The position numbers and the translations under genes are program-made. Positions 1,033 through 9,546 of a stretch of 9,546 bases of DNA are shown here, piece by piece. The notes beneath the pieces are model-generated. The model was not told where the DNA came from, ran no database searches, and was given only the letters and a program-made list of their open reading frames with translations. The DNA is taken from contig JAJXUC010000145.1 in assembly GCA_021783435.1 (NCBI GenBank), positions 1 to 9,546 of the forward strand, given 5' to 3'. Position 1 is the stretch's first letter. Each line of letters opens with the position of its first letter. The DNA comes from Pseudomonadota bacterium (GTDB lineage: Bacteria > Pseudomonadota > Gammaproteobacteria > Burkholderiales > Burkholderiaceae).

Positions 1033-2055
1033 ATGATGTCAGCGCTGCTCCGAATTCCATTGAAAAACGTGTTTCAAAATCACAATCCGTGGTTGCTTTC
1101 GGTTGCGCCGATGCTCGACTGGACCGACCGGCATTGCCGCTATTTCCACCGTCAGCTCAGCGGTCATGCGCGCCTGTACACCGAGATGGTGACCACGGGC
1201 GCCTTGCTGCATGGGGATCAGCCACGGCATCTGGACTACAACGGCGAGGAGCATCCGCTTGCGTTGCAGCTGGGCGGCAGCGAGCCGCAGGAACTTGCCG
1301 CGTGCGCGAAGCTGGCGCAGCGCTGGGGGTATGCGGAGATCAATCTCAACTGCGGTTGCCCGAGCGAGCGTGTTCAGCGCGGCGCTTTCGGTGCCTGCCT
1401 GATGGCCGAGCCAGCCCTGGTGCGCGACGGCGTGGCGGCCATGCGCGACGCTGTGGGCGACGATCTGCCGGTGACGGTGAAGCACCGTATCGGTATTGAC
1501 CGCGTAGAGAGCGATGACTTCGTGCGCGACTTCGTCGGCACCGTGGCGGAGGGGGGGTGCTCGGTATTCATCGTGCATGCGCGCAACGCTTGGCTGCAGG
1601 GTTTGAGTCCCAAGGACAACCGCGAGATTCCGCCATTGCGACATGAACTTGTGTATCGGCTCAAGCGCGAATTTCCGCAGTTCACCATCGTGCTCAATGG
1701 CGGGGTGAAGACCGATGCCGAGGTGCGTGAACACCTGATGCATGTGGATGGTGTGATGGTCGGACGCGAGGCGTATCAGCGACCCTGGTGGCTGGCGAGC
1801 TGGGATGCGCTGTACTTCGGCGCAGGGCCGCGGCATGCGGCACCGGAGGACGTTGAGCGCAGTATGCAGGCCTATGCGCAGCGCATGGCCGGGCAGGGTG
1901 TGCCGGCCTTCGCCATCACCCGTCATATGCTGAACCTTTGGAAGGGCGCGCCTGGCGCCAGACTGTGGCGTCGGACGCTGAGCGATCCGGCGCGGCGCCG
2001 ACTGCCGCCGGCCGAACTCTTCCAGCAGGCCGAGCAAGCGCGACTGGCAGCCTGA
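1033..2055 (+). CDS. dusA: tRNA-dihydrouridine(20/20a) synthase DusA, 340 aa
   Basis: This is an FMN-dependent enzyme that reduces uridine 20/20a in the tRNA D-loop to dihydrouridine using NADPH; it is cytoplasmic. Family signatures are clear and closer to DusA than to DusB or DusC: SVAPMLDWTDRHCRYF (23-38), YTEMVTTGALLHG (49-61), HPLALQLGGS (74-83), the catalytic cysteine C109 in NLNCGCPSERVQ (104-115), GAFGACLM (117-124), VTVKHRIGID (147-156) with K150, FIVHARNAWLQGLSPKDNREIPPL (179-202), and the FMN phosphate site LNGGVK plus DGVMVGREAYQ (239-249). The C-terminal helical domain with ITRHMLNLWKG matches DusA. Length is normal (E. coli DusA is about 330-345). An in-frame stop at 1024-1026 limits the start to ATG 1033, ATG 1036 or a later GTG near 1069; none has a convincing ribosome binding site. 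It appears to be transcribed alone. Confidence 0.95.
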   Translation: MMSALLRIPLKNVFQNHNPWLLSVAPMLDWTDRHCRYFHRQLSGHARLYTEMVTTGALLHGDQPRHLDYNGEEHPLALQLGGSEPQELAACAKLAQRWGYAEINLNCGCPSERVQRGAFGACLMAEPALVRDGVAAMRDAVGDDLPVTVKHRIGIDRVESDDFVRDFVGTVAEGGCSVFIVHARNAWLQGLSPKDNREIPPLRHELVYRLKREFPQFTIVLNGGVKTDAEVREHLMHVDGVMVGREAYQRPWWLASWDALYFGAGPRHAAPEDVERSMQAYAQRMAGQGVPAFAITRHMLNLWKGAPGARLWRRTLSDPARRRLPPAELFQQAEQARLAA

Positions 2056-2134: not shown

Positions 2135-2326
2135 TCAACGACCGAGCGCGTCATCCAGCGATTCGCCCGGTTTCCAGGGGCGGCCGAGCTCGGCCTCGAT
2201 GTATTCCCGGATCAAACGCCGAACCACCTGGGAGGGGGTCTGGTCCTCGCGCGCGCACAGGTGCTCGAACACGGCCTTTTTCTGCGGGTCGATCAGCACG
2301 GTCAGTCTGCTGGTGCGTTGTTCCAT
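2135..2326 (-). CDS. Ribbon-helix-helix (CopG-type) DNA-binding protein, 63 aa
   Basis: The small protein has the layout of a ribbon-helix-helix repressor. A short beta strand TSRLTVLID (residues 5-13) is followed by helix 1 PQKKAVFEHLCARED (14-28), a turn TPS (30-32), and helix 2 QVVRRLIREYIEAEL (33-47), with a charged tail to residue 63. Such proteins bind DNA as dimers through the paired strands, usually at short palindromes, and often repress their own promoter. It is transcribed divergently from hyfB; the 67-base gap between the two starts contains two inverted repeats. No toxin gene adjoins it, so an antitoxin role has no support here. No strong Shine-Dalgarno precedes its ATG. Control of the hyf operon is an inference from position only. 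Confidence 0.75.
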   Translation of the reverse strand: MEQRTSRLTVLIDPQKKAVFEHLCAREDQTPSQVVRRLIREYIEAELGRPWKPGESLDDALGR

Positions 2327-2355: not shown

Positions 2356-2368
2356 CACATCGTATGTG
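2356..2368. promoter_or_regulatory. Inverted repeat CACAT-CGT-ATGTG, candidate operator half-sites
   Basis: Five-base arms CACAT (2356-2360) and ATGTG (2364-2368) are perfect reverse complements around CGT. The centre lies 13-14 bases from the centre of the neighbouring palindrome, so two dimers could sit side by side. The two repeats are not identical in sequence (ACATGT-like core shared as ACAT/ATGT). Confidence 0.35.
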
Positions 2369-2393: not shown

Positions 2394-4397
2394 ATGGATG
2401 CCCCCACGCTGCTGGCCGTCGCTTTGGGTGTCGTCCTGGGCTGGGGTTTGATCGGGCTGGCGGGCTTGCTGGCGCCACAGTCCACGCGCTGGGTCGCGCA
2501 TGGCATGTTTCCGCTTGGGGCTGTGGGCAGTGTGGCGATGGCCGGTGTGGGGCTCCTGGCGCTGTTCGCGCCGGCGTCTTCGCTGGCGCTGCCGGTCGGC
2601 CTGCCGGGGCTGCCCATGCATTTGCGGCTGGACGCGCTGTCCGGTTTTTTTCTGTTCCTGCTCGGCGCGTCCAGCATCGGCATTTCAGTGTTCGCGGCGG
2701 GCTATTTCCGCTCAGGCGAAGGCACCGCCCCGGGCCTGCTCGGCTTGCAATATCACATCTTTCTGGCTGCCATGGCCATGGTGCTGCTGGCGGCCGACGC
2801 CTATGCCTTCATGCTGGCGTGGGAAGTCATGGCGCTGTCGTCCTATTTCCTGGTCGTGAGCCAGCACCGCCTTGCGGAGATCCGCAGCGCGGGTTTCGTC
2901 TACCTTCTGCTCGCGCATTTGGGCGCCATCGCTCTGCTACTGTGCTTCGGGGTGATGATGCAAGGCGGGGGCAGCGGGCTGACCTTCGAGGCCATGCGCC
3001 AGGCTCGCCTTTCGCCTGCCTGGGCCACGGTGGCTTTCGGCCTCGCCGTGGCGGGGTTCGGTGCCAAGGCCGGGCTGGTTCCTTTGCATATCTGGCTGCC
3101 CGAGGCACACCCCGCGGCTCCGTCGCCGGTGTCCGCGCTGATGAGCGGGGTCATGCTGAAGACGGCGTTGTACGGTCTGCTACGGGTGAGCTTCGATCTG
3201 CTGCACGCGCCGCTGTGGTGGTGGGGCGTGCCGCTGTTGGCGCTGGGCCTGTTCGGCGCGCTGTTCGGCGTGCTGTTCGCCGCGGTGCAAACCGATATGA
3301 AGCGCCTGCTGGCGTATTCATCCATCGAGAACATCGGCATCGCGTTTGCGGCGCTTGGTCTGGCTCTGGTGTTCCATGGCATTGGCATGCCCGCGCTTGC
3401 CGCGCTGGCGCTGGCGGCCATGCTGTACCACGTCCTCAACCACGCCTTTTTCAAGAGCCTGCTATTCCTCGCCACCGGCTCCGTATTGCATGCAACCCAC
3501 CAGCGCAGCCTGGGACGGCTTGGCGGCCTGCTGCGGCGCATGCCCTGGGTTGGATGGACGGCCTTGGTTGGCACCCTGGCCATCGCAGGCCTGCCGCCGC
3601 TCAACGGTTTCGTGGCGGAATGGCTGCTGTTGCAGGCTTTTCTGTTCACGCCGGGCATTTCCAAACCCTTTTTCGGCATGCTCATCCCGCTGGGGGCGGC
3701 CGTTCTGGCGCTCACCGCGGCATTGGGGGGCTATGTGATGGTGAAGTTCTATGGCGTGATTTTTCTTGGCCGTGCGCGCGAGCCGGAACTGGAACATGCG
3801 CATGACGCTGGCCTGCTGGAGCGTTTCGGTCTGGTGTGGCTTGCAGCGGGCTGCGTGCTGCTCGGACTGCTGCCGGGTCTGGTGCTGCAGGCCATCGACC
3901 GCGTCAGCCTGCAGCTTCTGGGCAACGGACTCGGACAAACCGGCAACTGGACCTGGCTGGTGCCAACGTCGCCCCAGCGCGCAGCCTATAACCCGGTGGT
4001 CGTGCTGCTGGTCGGGCTCTTGGTGATCGGCTTCACGTTCTGGGTCACGCACCGGATTTACACCGGCCGTACGCGCCGCGCCGAGGCCTGGGATTGCGGA
4101 GCCCCTGGCCTGACACCGCGCATGCAGGACACGGCCGAGGGCATGGGCCAGCCGGTCCGCAGATTGTTTGCCCCGTTCTTCCAGACCCGCGTGGACCTGC
4201 CGGCTCCGGCCGACACGGCCCCACGCTACCGCGTGGCGGTGGCGGACCGTTTCTGGGCACAGCTCTATACGCCCCTGGCGGATGCGGTGTTGTGGCTGGC
4301 GCGCCAGATCGGGCGCATCCAGCAGGGGCGCATTGCCGTCTACCTCCTCTACAGCTTCATCACCCTGCTGGTGTTGCTGATGGTGGTCGTGCGATGA
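2394..4397 (+). CDS. hyfB: HyfB-like proton-channel membrane subunit, 667 aa
   Basis: This is a member of the NuoL/M/N and Mrp antiporter-like family, the HycC/HyfB branch, in the inner membrane. It is predicted to translocate protons as part of a complex I-like membrane arm. The key charged residues are present: E144 in LAWEVMALSSYF (TM5 glutamate), K225 in FGAKAGLVPLHIWLPEAHP (222-240) followed by SPVSALMSG, and K354 in the NHAFFKSLLF helix, plus E409 in GFVAEWLLLQ. The C-terminal part carries the HycC/HyfB-type segment EAWDCG (564-569) with RMQDTAEGMGQPVRRLF (576-592), an amphipathic stretch, and a last membrane helix (about 647-666). Length is close to E. coli HyfB (about 670). An in-frame TAA at 2379-2381 makes ATG 2394 the first possible ATG; its ribosome binding site is weak. 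It overlaps hyfC by ATGA. Confidence 0.93.
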   Translation: MDAPTLLAVALGVVLGWGLIGLAGLLAPQSTRWVAHGMFPLGAVGSVAMAGVGLLALFAPASSLALPVGLPGLPMHLRLDALSGFFLFLLGASSIGISVFAAGYFRSGEGTAPGLLGLQYHIFLAAMAMVLLAADAYAFMLAWEVMALSSYFLVVSQHRLAEIRSAGFVYLLLAHLGAIALLLCFGVMMQGGGSGLTFEAMRQARLSPAWATVAFGLAVAGFGAKAGLVPLHIWLPEAHPAAPSPVSALMSGVMLKTALYGLLRVSFDLLHAPLWWWGVPLLALGLFGALFGVLFAAVQTDMKRLLAYSSIENIGIAFAALGLALVFHGIGMPALAALALAAMLYHVLNHAFFKSLLFLATGSVLHATHQRSLGRLGGLLRRMPWVGWTALVGTLAIAGLPPLNGFVAEWLLLQAFLFTPGISKPFFGMLIPLGAAVLALTAALGGYVMVKFYGVIFLGRAREPELEHAHDAGLLERFGLVWLAAGCVLLGLLPGLVLQAIDRVSLQLLGNGLGQTGNWTWLVPTSPQRAAYNPVVVLLVGLLVIGFTFWVTHRIYTGRTRRAEAWDCGAPGLTPRMQDTAEGMGQPVRRLFAPFFQTRVDLPAPADTAPRYRVAVADRFWAQLYTPLADAVLWLARQIGRIQQGRIAVYLLYSFITLLVLLMVVVR

Positions 4398-5344
4398 ACG
4401 CTGCGGCCCTGCTCACCCAGCTGCTGGCGGTATTGGCTTCGGTTGCCCTGGCGCCGCTGTTCCTCGGCTGGGTGAACCAGTGCCGCGCCTGGCTTGCCAA
4501 CCGCACCGCGCCGCCCTTGTGGCTGCCGTACCTGCGCTTGCGCAAGCTGCTGCACAAGGACGCCGTGCTGGCGCACGGAGCCACGCCCTTGTTTCGCGCC
4601 GTGCCCTATATGCTGTTCGGCATCATGGTGGCCGCGGCCGCCATCATCCCCTCGCTGAGCACCGATCTGCCGTTTGCCTCGGCGGCGGATGCCATCGCGC
4701 TGGTCGGTCTGTTCGCGCTGGCGCGGGTGTTCATTGCGCTGGCCGGCATGGACATCGGCACCGCTTTCGGCAGCATGGGGGCGCGGCGCGAGATGATGGT
4801 GGGCTTCCTCGCCGAGCCGGCCCTGCTCATGGTGTTGTTCACGGCTTCGCTGATCACTGGCAGCACCCTGTTACCCGTCATCGCCGAGACGTTGCAATCA
4901 CGAGCCCTGGCCATTCATGCCAGCCTGGCCTTCGTCGCGGTGGCCTTCGTCATGGTGTTGCTCGCCGAGAATGCGCGCATTCCGGTGGACAACCCGGCCA
5001 CGCATCTGGAACTCACGATGATCCACGAGGCCATGGTGCTGGAGTATTCGGCGCGCCACCTCGCGCTGGTGGAGTGGGCCAGCGCGCTGAAACTGTTCAA
5101 TTACACCTGCATCGGCTTTGCCCTGTTTCTGCCTTGGGGCATGGCCGGCCGCGCCGACGGCATCCTATGGTTGTTGCCCGCGATTCCGCCGCTGCTGATC
5201 AAGCTCGCGGTGGCGGGCTTGGTCATCGCGCTGATCGAAACCCTGAGCGCCAAGCTGCGCATTTTCCGCGCGCCGGAATTCCTGGCCACGGCCTTCCTGC
5301 TGGCCGTTCTTGGGTTGTTGGTGCATCTGACGCTGGAGCATTGA
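4394..5344 (+). CDS. hyfC: HyfC-like (NuoH/HycD family) membrane connector, 316 aa
   Basis: This multi-helix inner-membrane subunit is homologous to NuoH, HycD and HyfC and joins the soluble electron-transfer module to the ion-pumping arm. Recognisable family blocks are WLPYLRLRKLLHKD (43-56), the acidic-basic loop GMDIGTAFGSMGARREMMVGFLAEPA (about 118-143), AENARIPVDNPATHLELTMIHEAMVLEYS (about 195-223), and LFIALIET-like VIALIETLSAKLRIFRAPEFL near the C-terminus. These conserved Glu/Asp and Arg residues form the 'E-channel' and quinone-side loops in complex I. Length equals the family norm (HyfC about 315). The start ATG overlaps the hyfB stop as ATGA, which implies translational coupling. 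Confidence 0.94.
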   Translation: MNAAALLTQLLAVLASVALAPLFLGWVNQCRAWLANRTAPPLWLPYLRLRKLLHKDAVLAHGATPLFRAVPYMLFGIMVAAAAIIPSLSTDLPFASAADAIALVGLFALARVFIALAGMDIGTAFGSMGARREMMVGFLAEPALLMVLFTASLITGSTLLPVIAETLQSRALAIHASLAFVAVAFVMVLLAENARIPVDNPATHLELTMIHEAMVLEYSARHLALVEWASALKLFNYTCIGFALFLPWGMAGRADGILWLLPAIPPLLIKLAVAGLVIALIETLSAKLRIFRAPEFLATAFLLAVLGLLVHLTLEH

Positions 5345-5347
5345 GCC

Positions 5348-6049
5348 ATGCCGGCCGTCACGACATCCATGGTTGGCAGCGGTGCTGCCGCGCTTCCGGT
5401 CGGCACGCAACTCATCCACTTGTTTGCCGCGGTGCTGCTGTTGCTGTCTTTTGCAATGTTGGCCCAGCGCCGCGTTGTCAACCTTGTGAATCTCTTTGCC
5501 GGGCAGGGCGCCGCCCTGGTCGCTTGCGCCGTGGTGGTCGGTTACTCGACCGGGCAGCCCGAGCTGTACACCTCAGCCGCCATCACCCTGGTCCTCAAGG
5601 TTTTGGTGTTGCCTTACATCCTGCACAAGCTCATCGGCAGGCTGCAGGTGGAGCGAGACACGGAGACCCTGGTGAACATCCCCACCATGCAGATCATTGG
5701 CATCCTGCTGGTGATTTTTGCCTTCGTGCTGGCGCAACCGATCTCGCAGTTCGCCGGCGCGGCCACGCGCAGCACCCTGGGTATCGCGCTGGCCGTGGTG
5801 TTCCTCGCTTTCCTGATGATGATCGTGCGGCGCAAGGCCATCGCCCAGGTGGTGGGCTTCCTGGCGATGGAAAACGGCTTGCTGTTCGCGGCGACCAGCG
5901 CGACGCACGGCATGCCCATGGTGGTGGAGCTGGGCATCGGCCTGGACGTGCTGGTGGGTGTGTTCGTGCTGGGCATTTTCTTTTTCCAGATCCGCGAGCA
6001 ATTCGACAGCCTCGATCTGCGGCATCTGGAAACCCTGAAGGACGACTGA
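5348..6049 (+). CDS. hyfE: HyfE-like (NuoK-related) membrane subunit, 233 aa
   Basis: This inner-membrane subunit is of the HyfE family, whose C-terminal half resembles NuoK/MrpC. I see about seven hydrophobic segments (roughly residues 20-40, 44-66, 74-92, 112-131, 143-160, 166-184 and 192-214). The buried glutamates typical of NuoK-like proteins are E175 in GFLAMENGLLFAAT and E194 in VVELGIGLDVLVG. The protein ends with a charged tail QIREQFDSLDLRHLETLKDD. It is slightly longer than E. coli HyfE (about 216) because of an N-terminal extension; ATG 5369 is an alternative start. A GGAG at 5335-5338 sits nine bases before ATG 5348, three bases after the hyfC stop. In the complex it links the NuoH-like and antiporter-like subunits. 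Confidence 0.9.
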   Translation: MPAVTTSMVGSGAAALPVGTQLIHLFAAVLLLLSFAMLAQRRVVNLVNLFAGQGAALVACAVVVGYSTGQPELYTSAAITLVLKVLVLPYILHKLIGRLQVERDTETLVNIPTMQIIGILLVIFAFVLAQPISQFAGAATRSTLGIALAVVFLAFLMMIVRRKAIAQVVGFLAMENGLLFAATSATHGMPMVVELGIGLDVLVGVFVLGIFFFQIREQFDSLDLRHLETLKDD

Positions 6050-7504
6050 ATGGGCTTGCTCGCCGTCCTGGCCCTGCCGCTGCTTGGCGCCGTGATCCTG
6101 GCGTTTTTCGGCCATCGTCTCATTGCGCCGCGCCTGAACCTGGCGGTGAGCGCGGCCACATTCGTCGCTGCCTGCGTGCTGACCGCGGATGTCATCGCGC
6201 ATGGGCCGATGCAGGTTCTGGCGGCCGAGTTCTTCATCGATCCGTTCAACGTCTTCCTGGTCGCGCTCACGGCCTTCGTCGGTATGACCACGGCCGCCTT
6301 TTCGCGACCCTACATGCGCATCGAGCAGGAGCACGGGCGGGTCGATGCGCGGCGCCTGCGGCTGTATCACAGCATGTACCAGCTGTTCATGTTCACCATG
6401 TTGCTGGCGCTGACCACGAACAATATGGGCATACTCTGGGTGGCGATGGAGGCGGCCACGCTGTCCACCGTGCTGCTGGTGTCGCTGTACCGCACCGCGG
6501 CCAGCCTCGAGGCGGCGTGGAAATACTTCATCCTGTGCGGCGTGGGCATTGCGCTGGCCTTGTTCGGCACCGTGCTGCTGTATTTCGCCGCCGAACGCGT
6601 GCTTGGTGCCGAAGGCATGAGCGCCTTGCTCTGGACCCACCTGAATGCGGTGAAGGGGCAGCTCGAACCCAGCATCATCGGCATCGCTTTCGTCTTCCTG
6701 CTGGTGGGCTATGGCACCAAGGTGGGACTGGTGCCGCTGCACAGCTGGCTGCCGGATGCGCACGCCGAAGGACCCACGCCGGTCTCGGCCGTGCTGTCGG
6801 GGCTGCTGCTGAACGTGGCGCTGTACGCGGTGATGCGCTGCAAGGTGCTGGTGGACGGCGCGGTGCACGCCGCTTGGCCGGGACAGATGCTGATGGGCTT
6901 CGGCTTGCTTTCGGTGGTGGTCGGCGCTTTCCTGCTGTGGCGGCAAAAGGATGTCAAGCGCATGTTCGCCTATTCGTCCATCGAGCACATGGGCATCATC
7001 ACCTTTGCCTTCGGCATGGGCGGCCCGGTGGCGAATTTCGCGGCCCTGCTGCACATGACGGGCCATGCGCTGACCAAGAGCGCTATCTTTTTCACCACCG
7101 GCCACGCCACGCAAAAGGCCGGCACGCAGCGCATGGACGACATCCAGGGGCTGCGCGAGCAGTCGCCGGCGTTGGGCTGGGGGTTGATGCTGGGGGCGCT
7201 GGCCATCGTCGGCATGCCGCCGTTCGGCGTGTTCGCCAGCGAGTTCCTCATCCTCACCACCGCGATGCAGACCCAGCCCTGGGCCACACCCATCCTGCTG
7301 CTGGCGCTGGGCGTTGCTTTCGGCGCCATCTTCATACGGGTGCAGGGCATGGTGTTCGGTGCCAGCACCTTGCGCCGGCTTCCGCATCAACCTGACATGC
7401 TGCCAGTGTTCGCCCATCTGGCGCTGGTGCTGCTGCTCGGACTGTATGTCCCGACATTCCTGGCATCGTGGTGGCATCTGGCCAGCAGCATGATCGGAGG
7501 ATGA
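6050..7504 (+). CDS. hyfF: HyfF-like proton-channel membrane subunit, 484 aa
   Basis: This is the second NuoL/M/N-like antiporter subunit of the operon, in the HyfF branch. Conserved charged residues of the proton path are kept: E134 in LWVAMEAATLSTVLLV (TM5), K224 in YGTKVGLVPLHSWLPDAHAEGPTPVSA (221-247), the broken-helix region FAYSSIEHMG (306-315), K343 in HALTKSAIFFTTGHA, and E398 in FGVFASEFLIL (392-402). About 14 membrane helices are expected. It is shorter than E. coli HyfF (about 526 residues), and the chain ends right after the last helix (about 452-474). ATG 6050 abuts the hyfE stop (6047-6049); GAAGGA at 6037-6042 lies seven bases before it. Its 3' end overlaps the first possible hyfG start. 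Confidence 0.93.
   Translation: MGLLAVLALPLLGAVILAFFGHRLIAPRLNLAVSAATFVAACVLTADVIAHGPMQVLAAEFFIDPFNVFLVALTAFVGMTTAAFSRPYMRIEQEHGRVDARRLRLYHSMYQLFMFTMLLALTTNNMGILWVAMEAATLSTVLLVSLYRTAASLEAAWKYFILCGVGIALALFGTVLLYFAAERVLGAEGMSALLWTHLNAVKGQLEPSIIGIAFVFLLVGYGTKVGLVPLHSWLPDAHAEGPTPVSAVLSGLLLNVALYAVMRCKVLVDGAVHAAWPGQMLMGFGLLSVVVGAFLLWRQKDVKRMFAYSSIEHMGIITFAFGMGGPVANFAALLHMTGHALTKSAIFFTTGHATQKAGTQRMDDIQGLREQSPALGWGLMLGALAIVGMPPFGVFASEFLILTTAMQTQPWATPILLLALGVAFGAIFIRVQGMVFGASTLRRLPHQPDMLPVFAHLALVLLLGLYVPTFLASWWHLASSMIGG
7496..7500 (+). promoter_or_regulatory. Ribosome binding site that decides the hyfG start
   Basis: GGAGG directly abuts ATG 7501, which is too close for use, but lies nine bases before ATG 7510, in the same frame. 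The usable start is therefore most likely 7510. Confidence 0.5.
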
Positions 7505-7509
7505 CGGCG

Positions 7510-9030
7510 ATGCGCGCACGGTGCTCCGGGATGGCGGTGGATCACCGCGCGGTGGACGCTCAGGGCTGGGCCGCGCTCGCGCAGCACATGCACGCGCAGG
7601 ACGCGCGGCTGCTGGCCTTGTGGGGCAGCGATACGCGTCTGCAGCGGGGCGGCTTCACGGTGCACGCCTGCTGGCTGCAGCGCGAAGCGCTCACTCTGGC
7701 CGAGCTTGTGCTGGCCTCCGGCGTGACCCATTACCCGGCGTTGCACGCCCTGTTTCCCGTGGCCGACCGCCTGCAGCGCGCCTTGCGCGACTTGCTCGGC
7801 TTGCAGGCGCCAGGCATGGACTCGCGTCCTTGGCTGCGCCACACGGCCTGGGGCGCCGACGAATTCCCGCTGCGCTGCGATGCGCCCGAGCCCGTTCCCG
7901 GAGGGGCGGCGGAAGCCGAGCGCTACGCCTTCGTTGCGGTGGATGGCGAAGGCGTGCACGAGATTGCCGTCGGCCCTGTGCACGCCGGCATCATCGAACC
8001 CGGGCAGTTTCGCTTTTCCGTCGTGGGCGAGAAGGTTTTGCGCCTGGAGCCGCGCCTGGGTTTCACGCACAAGGGGGTGGAGCGGCGTTTTCAGCAACTG
8101 ACCCTGGGCGAGGGCGTCGAGCTGGCGGCGCGCTTGTGCGGCGACAGTGCCGTGGCCAACGCCTGGGCTTATTGCATGGCGCTGGAGGCCTTGGCGGACA
8201 TGAGGATTCCGCCGCGCGCAGCCGCCTTGCGCGCCTTGTTGCTGGAACGCGAGCGCCTTGCCAACCACCTGGGCGATTTGGGCGCCATCGTCAACGACGC
8301 GGGTTTCGGCTTCGGCCTCGCGCAGTTCTCGCGGCTCAAGGAGGACCTGCTGCGCCTCAATGCCCGGGTGTTCGGCGCGCGCTACCCGATGGACGCGATC
8401 CAGCCCGGCGGCGTGGCACGGGACCTGGACGACGGCGCGCAGTCCATGCTGCGTCACCAGTGCCGCGTTTTGCGCAGCGAGGTGGAGCGCTTGAAGGGCA
8501 TCCTCGACCAGCATGAGGGCTTGCAGGACCGGCTCGCCGCCACGGGCCGCGTCGCGCCCGATCTGGCGCGTCGTCTCGGCATGCTGGGCCTGGCGGCGCG
8601 CGCCAGCGGCCAGGCACTGGACCTGCGGGCGATCCCCGGCCTTGCGCCGTACGACAACCTGGGCGTGCGCATCGCGGTGGAGCAGGGCGGCGATGTCGCC
8701 GCGCGGGTGGCGGTGCGTTTCGCCGAGGTGTTCGAGTCACTGCGTCTGAGCCTCGCGCTGCTCGATGCCTTGCCCAAAGGGCCGCATGCCCTGGCGTTGC
8801 CCGAGATCATTGCCCCCGGATTGGCGCTGGGTGTGGTGGAAGGATGGCGCGGGCCGGCTTTCGTCGCGCTGCAAGCCGGGGAGGGCGGATGCATCGCGCA
8901 CTGCCATCCGCATGATCCATCCTGGCAGAACTGGCCGGCGCTGGAGTGGATCATGGTCCAGGACATCGTGCCCGATTTTCCGCTGATCAACAAATCGTTC
9001 AATCTGTCCTATTCCGGACACGATCGCTGA
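7510..9030 (+). CDS. hyfG: HyfG/HycE-like large subunit lacking [NiFe] ligands (Ehr type), 506 aa
   Basis: This soluble subunit is a fusion of a NuoC-like domain (about 1-125, motif RDLLG at 93-97, EFPLR at 118-122) and a NuoD/hydrogenase large-subunit domain (about 150-506), as in HycE. Family blocks are VGPVHAGIIEPGQFRF (154-169), GFTHKGVERRF, ALLLERERLANHLGDLGAI, and IQPGGVARDL. In group 4 hydrogenases the [NiFe] site is CGxCxxxH near the start and DPCxxC near the end. Here the first reads C210-G-D-S213-A-V-A-N217, and the last reads SFNLSYSGHDR (496-506), with S500 and G503 where cysteines belong. Only C210 remains. The chain stops at the conserved Asp-Arg, with no cleavable tail. So it is very likely not an H2-forming enzyme; its substrate is unknown. 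Start chosen on GGAGG spacing; 7501 (ATGA overlap with hyfF) or 7531 remain possible. Confidence 0.88.
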   Translation: MRARCSGMAVDHRAVDAQGWAALAQHMHAQDARLLALWGSDTRLQRGGFTVHACWLQREALTLAELVLASGVTHYPALHALFPVADRLQRALRDLLGLQAPGMDSRPWLRHTAWGADEFPLRCDAPEPVPGGAAEAERYAFVAVDGEGVHEIAVGPVHAGIIEPGQFRFSVVGEKVLRLEPRLGFTHKGVERRFQQLTLGEGVELAARLCGDSAVANAWAYCMALEALADMRIPPRAAALRALLLERERLANHLGDLGAIVNDAGFGFGLAQFSRLKEDLLRLNARVFGARYPMDAIQPGGVARDLDDGAQSMLRHQCRVLRSEVERLKGILDQHEGLQDRLAATGRVAPDLARRLGMLGLAARASGQALDLRAIPGLAPYDNLGVRIAVEQGGDVAARVAVRFAEVFESLRLSLALLDALPKGPHALALPEIIAPGLALGVVEGWRGPAFVALQAGEGGCIAHCHPHDPSWQNWPALEWIMVQDIVPDFPLINKSFNLSYSGHDR

Positions 9031-9043
9031 GGAACCGCAAGTC

Positions 9044-9546
9044 ATGTGGAGAACCCTGCGCCAGATCGCCCGCGTCGGCCGCATCAGCGAGACGCCGCAC
9101 ACCGCAAGCATGGCCGTCGAGGCCGCGGACAGGCCCGATGTGCAGGCCGAGCTGCTGCGCATCCTCGGACGCGCGCTGGCCATCCGCGTGGTCGATGCCG
9201 GTTCGTGCAACGGCTGCGAACTGGAGATCCAGGCGCTGTCGAATCCCTATTACAACCTCGAAGGCCTGGGACTGCAGTTCGTCGCCAGCCCGCGGCATGC
9301 GGACATGCTGCTGGTCACCGGGCCGGTTTCGCGCCACATGGAGCAGGCTTTGCGGCGCACCTATGAAGCCATGCCCGAGCCGCGCCTGGTGGTGGCCGTG
9401 GGGGAGTGCGCATGCACCGGGGGGGTGTTCGGCGCAAGCTATGCGAGTTGCGGGCGTGTGGGCAATGTCCTGCCGGTGGATATCGCTGTGGCAGGCTGTC
9501 CGCCAAGCCCGCAGGCTCTGCTGGAGGGCATTCTGCGGGCCGTACA
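9044..9546 (+). CDS. hyfI: HyfI/HycG-like (NuoB family) Fe-S subunit, 3' end outside window
   Basis: The first 167 residues of a NuoB-family small subunit are present; the frame is still open at the window end. In complex I relatives this subunit carries the [4Fe-4S] cluster (N2 type) next to the active site of the large subunit. All four ligands are visible in the hydrogenase-style spacing: C55 and C58 in DAGSCNGCELEIQ (51-63), C122 in VGECACTGG (119-127), and C152 in AGCPPSP (150-156). C124 and C136 are additional cysteines in the same loop region. Residues 1-45 form an N-terminal helix region before the fold. It starts 13 bases after the hyfG stop; GAGGA at 9029-9033 overlaps that stop and lies ten bases before ATG 9044. 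E. coli HyfI/HycG are about 250 residues, so about 80-90 are missing from view. No HyfH ferredoxin gene separates it from hyfG. Confidence 0.92.
   Translation, partial: MWRTLRQIARVGRISETPHTASMAVEAADRPDVQAELLRILGRALAIRVVDAGSCNGCELEIQALSNPYYNLEGLGLQFVASPRHADMLLVTGPVSRHMEQALRRTYEAMPEPRLVVAVGECACTGGVFGASYASCGRVGNVLPVDIAVAGCPPSPQALLEGILRAV

Follow-up and report, generated by a model that had tools for sequence, protein, structure and literature searches.

The window, a stretch of 9,546 nucleotides analysed over its full length, carries a cassette of six hyf-like genes downstream of dusA (1033-2055, plus strand), all on the same strand and in the order hyfB-, hyfC-, hyfE-, hyfF-, hyfG- and hyfI-like. 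The first gene (2394..4397) codes for a HyfB-like, antiporter-like membrane subunit of 667 aa (NCBIfam NF005086, 875 bits) and is followed by those for a HyfC/NuoH-like membrane anchor (4394..5344; PF00146), a HyfE-like membrane subunit of 233 aa (5348..6049) and a HyfF-like, again antiporter-like, membrane subunit of 484 aa (6050..7504; NF005045, 858 bits). The HyfE-like protein scored 94 bits against NF008556, below the cut-off of 136, and its gene occupies the same cassette slot in related loci. The HyfG-like large subunit, a NuoCD/HycE homologue of 506 aa (7510..9030), matched PF00346, PF00329 and the solved chain 7z0s_E (E 4e-57), and the gene for the HyfI/NuoB-like small subunit (9044..9546; PF01058) runs off the window. 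Thiomonas delicata is the closest named genome (93% identity for HyfG). We observed the B-C-E-F-G-I order in 64 of 73 stretches from the window's order; the nine others, which were incomplete or re-ordered, probably owe this to contig ends or to cross-matching between antiporter-like genes.

Divergent to hyfB lies the gene of a putative regulator (2135..2326, minus strand), a 63-aa protein that reads as a member of the ribbon-helix-helix (CopG-like) family. Every one of the 11 Thiomonas-set loci has such a gene upstream of the cassette, as do 7 loci beyond that set, at a variable distance. Between the regulator and hyfB, the inverted repeat CACAT-CGT-ATGTG (2356..2368) is a candidate operator, the same or nearly the same in most of the aligned upstream regions of the Thiomonas set. 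A small protein with a signal-peptide-like start (MKTHHVF...) is encoded at about 639-893 of the window (plus strand), and dusA of T. delicata is preceded by a similar one.

The sequence-only reading had held that three of the four [NiFe] cysteines are missing from the HyfG-like protein, and alignment with HycE by phmmer and MAFFT bears this out: HycE C241, C244, C531 and C534 align with C210, S213, S500 and G503. The two former ligand motifs, C210-G-D212-S213 (8137..8148, plus strand; C241-G-I-C244 in HycE) and K495-S-F-N498-L-S500-Y-S-G503 (8992..9018, plus strand; G-S-L-D529-P-C531-Y-S-C534 in HycE), were compared across 241 aligned HyfG, namely the window protein, the best 120 nearest homologues and the best 120 of a second clade. 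At the four ligand positions, cysteine is wholly absent from 226 of these sequences and occurs once in 15. Cys stands at the C210 position in 14 sequences, compared to 226 with Ser there; Ser is found at the S213 position in 237 and at that of S500 in 230, and Gly at that of G503 in 240. For this clade, the alignment also rejects the possibility, raised beforehand as the case that would speak against a lost site, that other cysteines of the protein fill the metal site. Reduction of polysulfide, a candidate suggested by C210 and by the sulfur-oxidising genus, is not favoured because C210 is not conserved.

The pocket around the former metal site is strictly kept. D212, K495 and N498 are invariant in all 241 aligned HyfG, and E163 and H187 are present in all of the 240 sequences with a residue at those positions. 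Among 72 loci of the window's order, the second motif reads K..N in 69 and K..S in one, the pattern being unmatched in two, and the first motif pattern was matched in 66, every time as G-D-S, and unmatched in six. The position of the quinone-site Tyr of complex I is Gly in the HyfG-like protein. N498 takes the position of the HycE canopy residue Asp529, with Asn in 241 of 241 sequences; according to the part of the source available, this canopy Asp is strictly conserved and matters for the reduction of quinone (PMC9474812). A salt bridge between D212 and K495 in place of the metal is an idea to which the invariance of both residues lends itself, and in the predicted HyfG model, which used 77 of 240 homologues, residues 142-190 have a pLDDT below 50. 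The second clade (P0121-P0240, mostly named rhizobia and their kin) has invariant cysteines where the window protein has I493 and L499, a pair flanking the former ligand site that might serve as metal ligands or be joined in a disulfide.

HycE, HyfG and the Azospirillum HyfG continue for 32 residues beyond ...CTDR, a tail that is removed by a maturation protease, whereas the window protein stops there, like NuoCD. None of the 241 aligned homologues extends past the last residue of the window HyfG, and the tail is also absent from all 70 HyfG of the order set that were read to their stop. Of the 56 genomes carrying the complex, HypD was found in 25, compared to 11 of 11 genomes with a HycE/HyfG-like match (30-32% identity); within Thiomonas it was found in 9 of the 28 genomes, all 28 of which carry the complex. 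Many of these genomes are fragmentary, which makes the absence of HypD uncertain in each. The supposed absence of HypD from the window's closest relative proved wrong, T. delicata having one HypD. The true Hyf locus of Azospirillum has HycH-like, HycI-like and hyp genes. In tblastn searches of the cassette loci, HyfJ/HycH, HycI and HypA-D gave no match above 45 bits, and neither HyfA, HyfH, fdhF nor a third antiporter-like gene was found in the single-cluster cassettes. The window protein has neither of two features expected of a [NiFe] group 4 hydrogenase, the CxxC and CxxC ligands and the C-terminal extension. With the ligands and the tail gone and HypD not in all carriers, the earlier statement that this is not a [NiFe] hydrogenase holds at the level of sequence, where a hydrogenase is very unlikely. 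Open reading frames, the invariant HyfG residues and the presence of the complex throughout Thiomonas likewise agree with the claim that the gene is not decaying.

Judged by its genes, the complex is an energy-converting hydrogenase-related (Ehr) complex of the six-subunit hyfBCEFGI type, an already-known kind, as the sequence-only reading had grouped it. The large subunit is without metal motifs, and the syntenic membrane genes of Ehr complexes (NuoH-, NuoL-, HyfE- and HyfB-like) and the small subunit are all present in the window. Mycobacterial Rv0082-Rv0087 is among the closest known systems. In our tree, 41 Ehr-like rows stood apart from three HycE/HyfG (100/99) and two Nuo sequences, with long-branch warnings and with published Ehr references absent from the set. 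Among the matches listed, Ehr was present in at least 56 of 397 sampled Pseudomonadota genomes, as well as in all 28 of Thiomonas, and the cassette occurs on large plasmids in rhizobia, a Burkholderia, Variovorax, Azospirillum and a rhodococcus. Cupriavidus metallidurans CH34, a laboratory strain, was also among the matches. A relative already in print, the hyfBCEFGI of Acidithiobacillus ferrooxidans, was called a non-hydrogenase using HydDB, according to the available part of that paper (PMC7735108). From similarly partial texts, the HydDB classifier excludes Ehr (PMC5037454), Ehr is unlikely to act on H2 (PMC7304191) and its function is given as unknown (PMC4378227, PMC10284858, PMC12342949, PMC10432482, PMC6728331); these Ehr papers place complexes without metal motifs in Sulfobacillus, Nitrospira, CPR bacteria, ammonia-oxidising archaea and the tuberculosis complex. 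The warning that automated annotation would mislead here was well placed: relatives at 43-55% identity are publicly labelled as hydrogenase parts ('hydrogenase 4 subunit B/F', 'nickel-dependent hydrogenase large subunit', 'hydrogenase expression protein HypE').

The small subunit of hydrogenase-4 and of complex I is fed by a subunit (HyfH, NuoI) that carries two [4Fe-4S] clusters. The HyfI-like proteins keep the ligands of one proximal [4Fe-4S] cluster, C55 and C58 in 37 of 38 and C122 and C152 in 36 of 38 (one row being short), and all three cysteine patterns are present in 69 of 71 HyfI from the order set; the T. delicata orthologue had its best PDB match in MbhJ (6cfw_J, E 2e-35). We scanned frames of at least 60 aa for ferredoxin motifs in 38 cassette loci (39 minus the divergent L087), a scan that recovered the HyfH/NuoI-type subunits of four control loci (L063, L064, L065 and L089). 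The motif was absent in 29 of the 38 loci, seven had only strings judged to be out of frame or of low complexity, and in two (L019 and L072) it lay in a HyfI encoded by a second Ehr operon nearby. When the 72 order loci were searched by tblastn with HyfH, HycF and NuoI as queries, four stretches (L099, L101, L159 and L160) showed weak and partial matches several kb off, and two ferredoxin motifs occurred, as a motif match only, in nine frames from five stretches. Without a HyfH/NuoI-type ferredoxin subunit, the cassette therefore codes for one Fe-S cluster only, and since the electron-input subunit is missing beside it, a redox role is not to be taken for granted. Two kinds of Ehr operon share one contig in L019/L090 (a Variovorax plasmid) and in L072, the second kind having its HyfI fused to a ferredoxin-like domain. 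A HyfI homologue from an Allomeiothermus plasmid (L087:12077-12949) has none of the four cluster cysteines and bears an N-terminal extension.

In the membrane arm, the ion-path residues of HyfB, HyfF, HyfC and HyfE are kept in 38-40 of 40 rows, which argues for selection on ion movement. E144 of HyfB is found in all 40 rows and K225 and K354 in 39 each; E134, K224 and K343 of HyfF are kept in 39, 38 and 39; and the acidic residues E193, E207, E213 and E283 of HyfC are present in 40 of 40. The position of K225 of HyfB is Leu in E. coli HycC.

Carriers of the cassette have RuBisCO more often than other genomes. Among the 397 Pseudomonadota, carriers were called by bit score and identity (55 at 296 bits or more and one incomplete at 201), and RuBisCO, of form I/II by score, was counted at 370 bits or more together with two incomplete matches; RuBisCO-like proteins and short fragments were excluded (carriers G397, G145, G002, G382 and G224). 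RuBisCO was present in 32 of 56 carriers compared to 50 of 341 non-carriers (odds ratio 7.8, uncorrected for kinship). In a sample of 300 genomes from the window's order (RuBisCO cut at E < 1e-115; one genome with a 37% identical match, G667, not taken as a carrier), it was present in 56 of 80 carriers compared to 54 of 220 non-carriers (odds ratio 7.2, again uncorrected for kinship); the two samples are nested. RuBisCO was not counted in 24 of the 80 order carriers and 24 of the 56 phylum carriers. Within Thiomonas, 23 of 28 genomes have it, 22 at full length and one as a fragment.

The two sets of genes are not adjacent: cbbL lay within 4 kb of the cassette in 0 of 51 RuBisCO-positive loci, which rules out RuBisCO directly beside it in these loci. 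Where both were on the same contig, the distances, picked by eye among the matches listed, were 6.3-6.4 kb in two genomes and 12-25 kb in four, and in five more the nearest copy among the matches listed was 72 kb to 2.4 Mb away. T. delicata has DabA about 2 kb from RuBisCO (G001 C5:940447-946343), so another carbon pump is present there. Replacement of DabA by Ehr was not retained, as we observed a tendency only, DabA being found in 9 of 40 genomes with Ehr and 17 of 40 without (p 0.09), in a comparison covering 80 of the 110 RuBisCO-positive order genomes.

We then read the flanks of the cassette in 72 of the 80 order carrier loci, many of which have short flanks. A SulP gene was present within 4 kb in 17 of 51 RuBisCO-positive loci compared to 1 of 21 RuBisCO-negative loci (p 0.015), and the genome of this sole negative locus (G690) has a RuBisCO fragment. 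Thirteen of the 21 flank SulP genes share the strand of hyfB and lie no more than 500 bp upstream of it (p ~1e-12 against an even spread), and 20 SulP genes were counted in 472 kb of near flank compared to one in 273 kb of far flank. On the HyfG tree the SulP label changes eight times, as a raw count without a shuffled comparison. The best solved chain for one of the SulP proteins was a plant sulfate transporter, with 6ki1, which we take to be BicA, much lower; SulP proteins also carry other anions.

A gene for a CsoSCA-like carbonic anhydrase was found within 4 kb in 4 of 51 RuBisCO-positive and 0 of 21 RuBisCO-negative loci (p 0.31). It lies 69-179 bp from hyfI in L094, L095, L138 and L150, all RuBisCO-positive, and its product matched PF20686 (30.8 bits, cut-off 21.5) and, weakly, 2fgy (E 6e-5). 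In L094 it codes for 353 aa (about 9310-10371, minus strand), and the order there is SulP, cassette, CsoSCA-like gene, a GGDEF/EAL protein, a LysR regulator and the RuBisCO large subunit; the order in L095 is the same. A hexapeptide gene (Pfam Hexapep), whose product we read as gamma-carbonic-anhydrase-like, occurred within 4 kb in 7 of 51 positive and 0 of 21 negative loci (p 0.10); taken singly, neither of these two differences is significant. No SulP, CsoSCA-like or gamma-carbonic-anhydrase-like gene was found beside the cassette of T. delicata or that of the window, which ends inside hyfI, and only one of 39 earlier, broader loci (L070, also in the order set) has such neighbours. In the available part of a study of Acidithiobacillus caldus, one hyfBCEFG set co-occurs with carbon-fixation genes and a second set lies beside a beta-carbonic anhydrase and was proposed to be an H2-evolving hydrogenase aiding pH/CO2 homeostasis (PMC3826726); among the partial Ehr texts at hand, a collection not assembled by a search on carbon genes, this was the only one near a carbon link.

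A scan of the neighbour genes predicted in 23 loci, covering 124 of 170 (families listed: 25 of 159 from Pfam and 25 of 670 from NCBIfam) gave as the commonest listed neighbours HTH_3 (5 of 124), polyamine aminopropyltransferase (4), pyridine-nucleotide oxidoreductase (3) and ABC (3); short-chain and dihydrolipoyl dehydrogenase families came to two each. Formate dehydrogenase, ferredoxin, carbonic anhydrase and SulP were not among the 25 commonest neighbour families listed. A conserved redox partner next door was rejected, since among the families listed non-regulators recur in at most 4 of 124 neighbours. A cobalamin-adenosyltransferase-like gene, PduO-type by our reading, lies just downstream of hyfI in eight loci; within 4 kb, 7 of 51 RuBisCO-positive and 1 of 21 RuBisCO-negative loci have it. 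Six loci have a spermidine-synthase-like (polyamine aminopropyltransferase) gene near the cassette.

We tentatively propose that, in autotrophs such as Thiomonas, the complex is a module that translocates ions in the service of inorganic-carbon supply. Ion translocation would be coupled to events in the polar HyfG pocket (D212, K495 and N498 with E163, H187 and R447), where the conversion of CO2 to bicarbonate may be helped by removing a proton; alternatively, the ion gradient might be supplied to the neighbouring SulP-type transporter. It seems rather doubtful that the proposal extends to six-subunit Ehr complexes as a whole, as a further energy-coupled inorganic-carbon machine with the pocket handling CO2/bicarbonate or gating ion flow, SulP and carbonic-anhydrase-like proteins as partners and, elsewhere, a part in anaplerotic CO2 or pH control.

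Because of the kept cluster ligands and the results against the carbon link, we place level with carbon supply, and just as tentatively, a redox pump in which a free ferredoxin or flavodoxin would dock on HyfI at the place otherwise taken by HyfH and electrons would pass through the single [4Fe-4S] cluster to a quinone or another small acceptor in the HyfG pocket, ions being pumped as in complex I or MBS. In its favour, the cluster ligands are kept in 36-37 of 38 HyfI, E163 and H187 are retained wherever the position is filled (240 sequences), and the best relatives in sequence and structure are redox enzymes; in 6u8y_L, presumably the MBS large subunit, the first motif also retains its Cys at the C210 position and lacks its other one, the C-terminal motif lying outside the alignment. 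However, the 38 loci scanned have, by our judgement, no true ferredoxin motif outside a second Ehr operon, the HyfH/NuoI-like matches in the order loci are weak, partial, several kb away and limited to four stretches, and the listed non-regulator neighbour families reach at most 4 of 124 proteins. Moreover, the canopy Asp is Asn in 241 of 241 HyfG and the quinone-site Tyr position is Gly.

An ion-gradient or pH-homeostasis module, or a regulated proton path, with no dedicated substrate is unlikely. It would fit ion-path residues that are strictly kept while the catalytic metal site is not, as well as the distant Allomeiothermus HyfI that lost all four cluster cysteines, but a strictly conserved HyfG pocket is unexpected for a part with no task. 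Somewhat less probable still is a complex fed by a formate dehydrogenase encoded elsewhere. In the parts available, such an FDH-Ehr has been proposed for Riflemargulisbacteria and Saganbacteria (PMC6349859), Ehr subunits were abundant on formate in Geobacter (PMC7894505) and a formate link was suggested for Acidithiobacillus (PMC3826726, PMC7735108). In contrast, FdhF fragment, FdhB and HyfA queries were unmatched beside the single-cluster cassette while the control Hyf locus L089 was matched, and a related match occurred in only one of the 72 order loci (L101), about 9-10 kb off. The HycE fold and the one HypD of T. delicata would point to a working [NiFe] hydrogenase whose ligands are unusual, or to a gene in decay, which we consider extremely improbable given the ligand positions without any cysteine in 226 of 241 HyfG and with one in 15, the tail missing from 241 of 241, HypD not found in 31 of 56 carriers, the open frames with invariant residues and the complex in 28 of 28 Thiomonas genomes.

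Compared to known systems, the complex differs from formate hydrogenlyase and hydrogenase-4, whose HycE and HyfG have the [NiFe] ligands and the tail, in being without both. Respiratory complex I has the same core, and its large subunit also ends ...DR without a tail; however, NuoE, F, G and I were not matched beside the single-cluster cassette, the small-subunit cluster has CC where the window-type HyfI has CxxC, and the conserved canopy Asp and quinone Tyr are replaced by Asn and Gly in the window HyfG. In 6u8y, which we take to be Pyrococcus MBS, the membrane-bound sulfane sulfur reductase, the first motif retains a single Cys, at the position of C210, as in the window. C210 is not conserved among the aligned HyfG, though, and whereas MBS has a ferredoxin-type subunit, the window cassette does not. 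The DAB and NDH-1 CO2-uptake complexes combine antiporter-like subunits with energy-coupled carbon uptake, and their likeness to the carbon-supply module that we propose is one of working principle only, without a claim of membership; the DAB pump requires a DabA subunit, and a profile search (PF10070) gave no match among the seven window proteins, the cassette having none.

The published hyfBCEFGI and other Ehr complexes, whose function is unknown in the printed parts available, share with the window complex the six subunits, the missing metal motifs and the group-4-like large subunit, and nothing decisive sets the window complex apart from them. In the portions at hand, that literature does not state the absent ferredoxin subunit, the canopy Asn or the lost tail, nor, in papers not searched on carbon genes, the SulP and carbonic-anhydrase neighbours. 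What our analysis adds to the published description are therefore limits on the mechanism (no metal site, no wire, an altered canopy and an intact ion path) and a carbon-gene neighbourhood, and the link to RuBisCO, SulP and carbonic-anhydrase-like genes makes the question of function testable, for example by deletion. If carbon uptake were true, Ehr would be a case of a [NiFe] pocket turned to a use beyond H2 and quinone chemistry.
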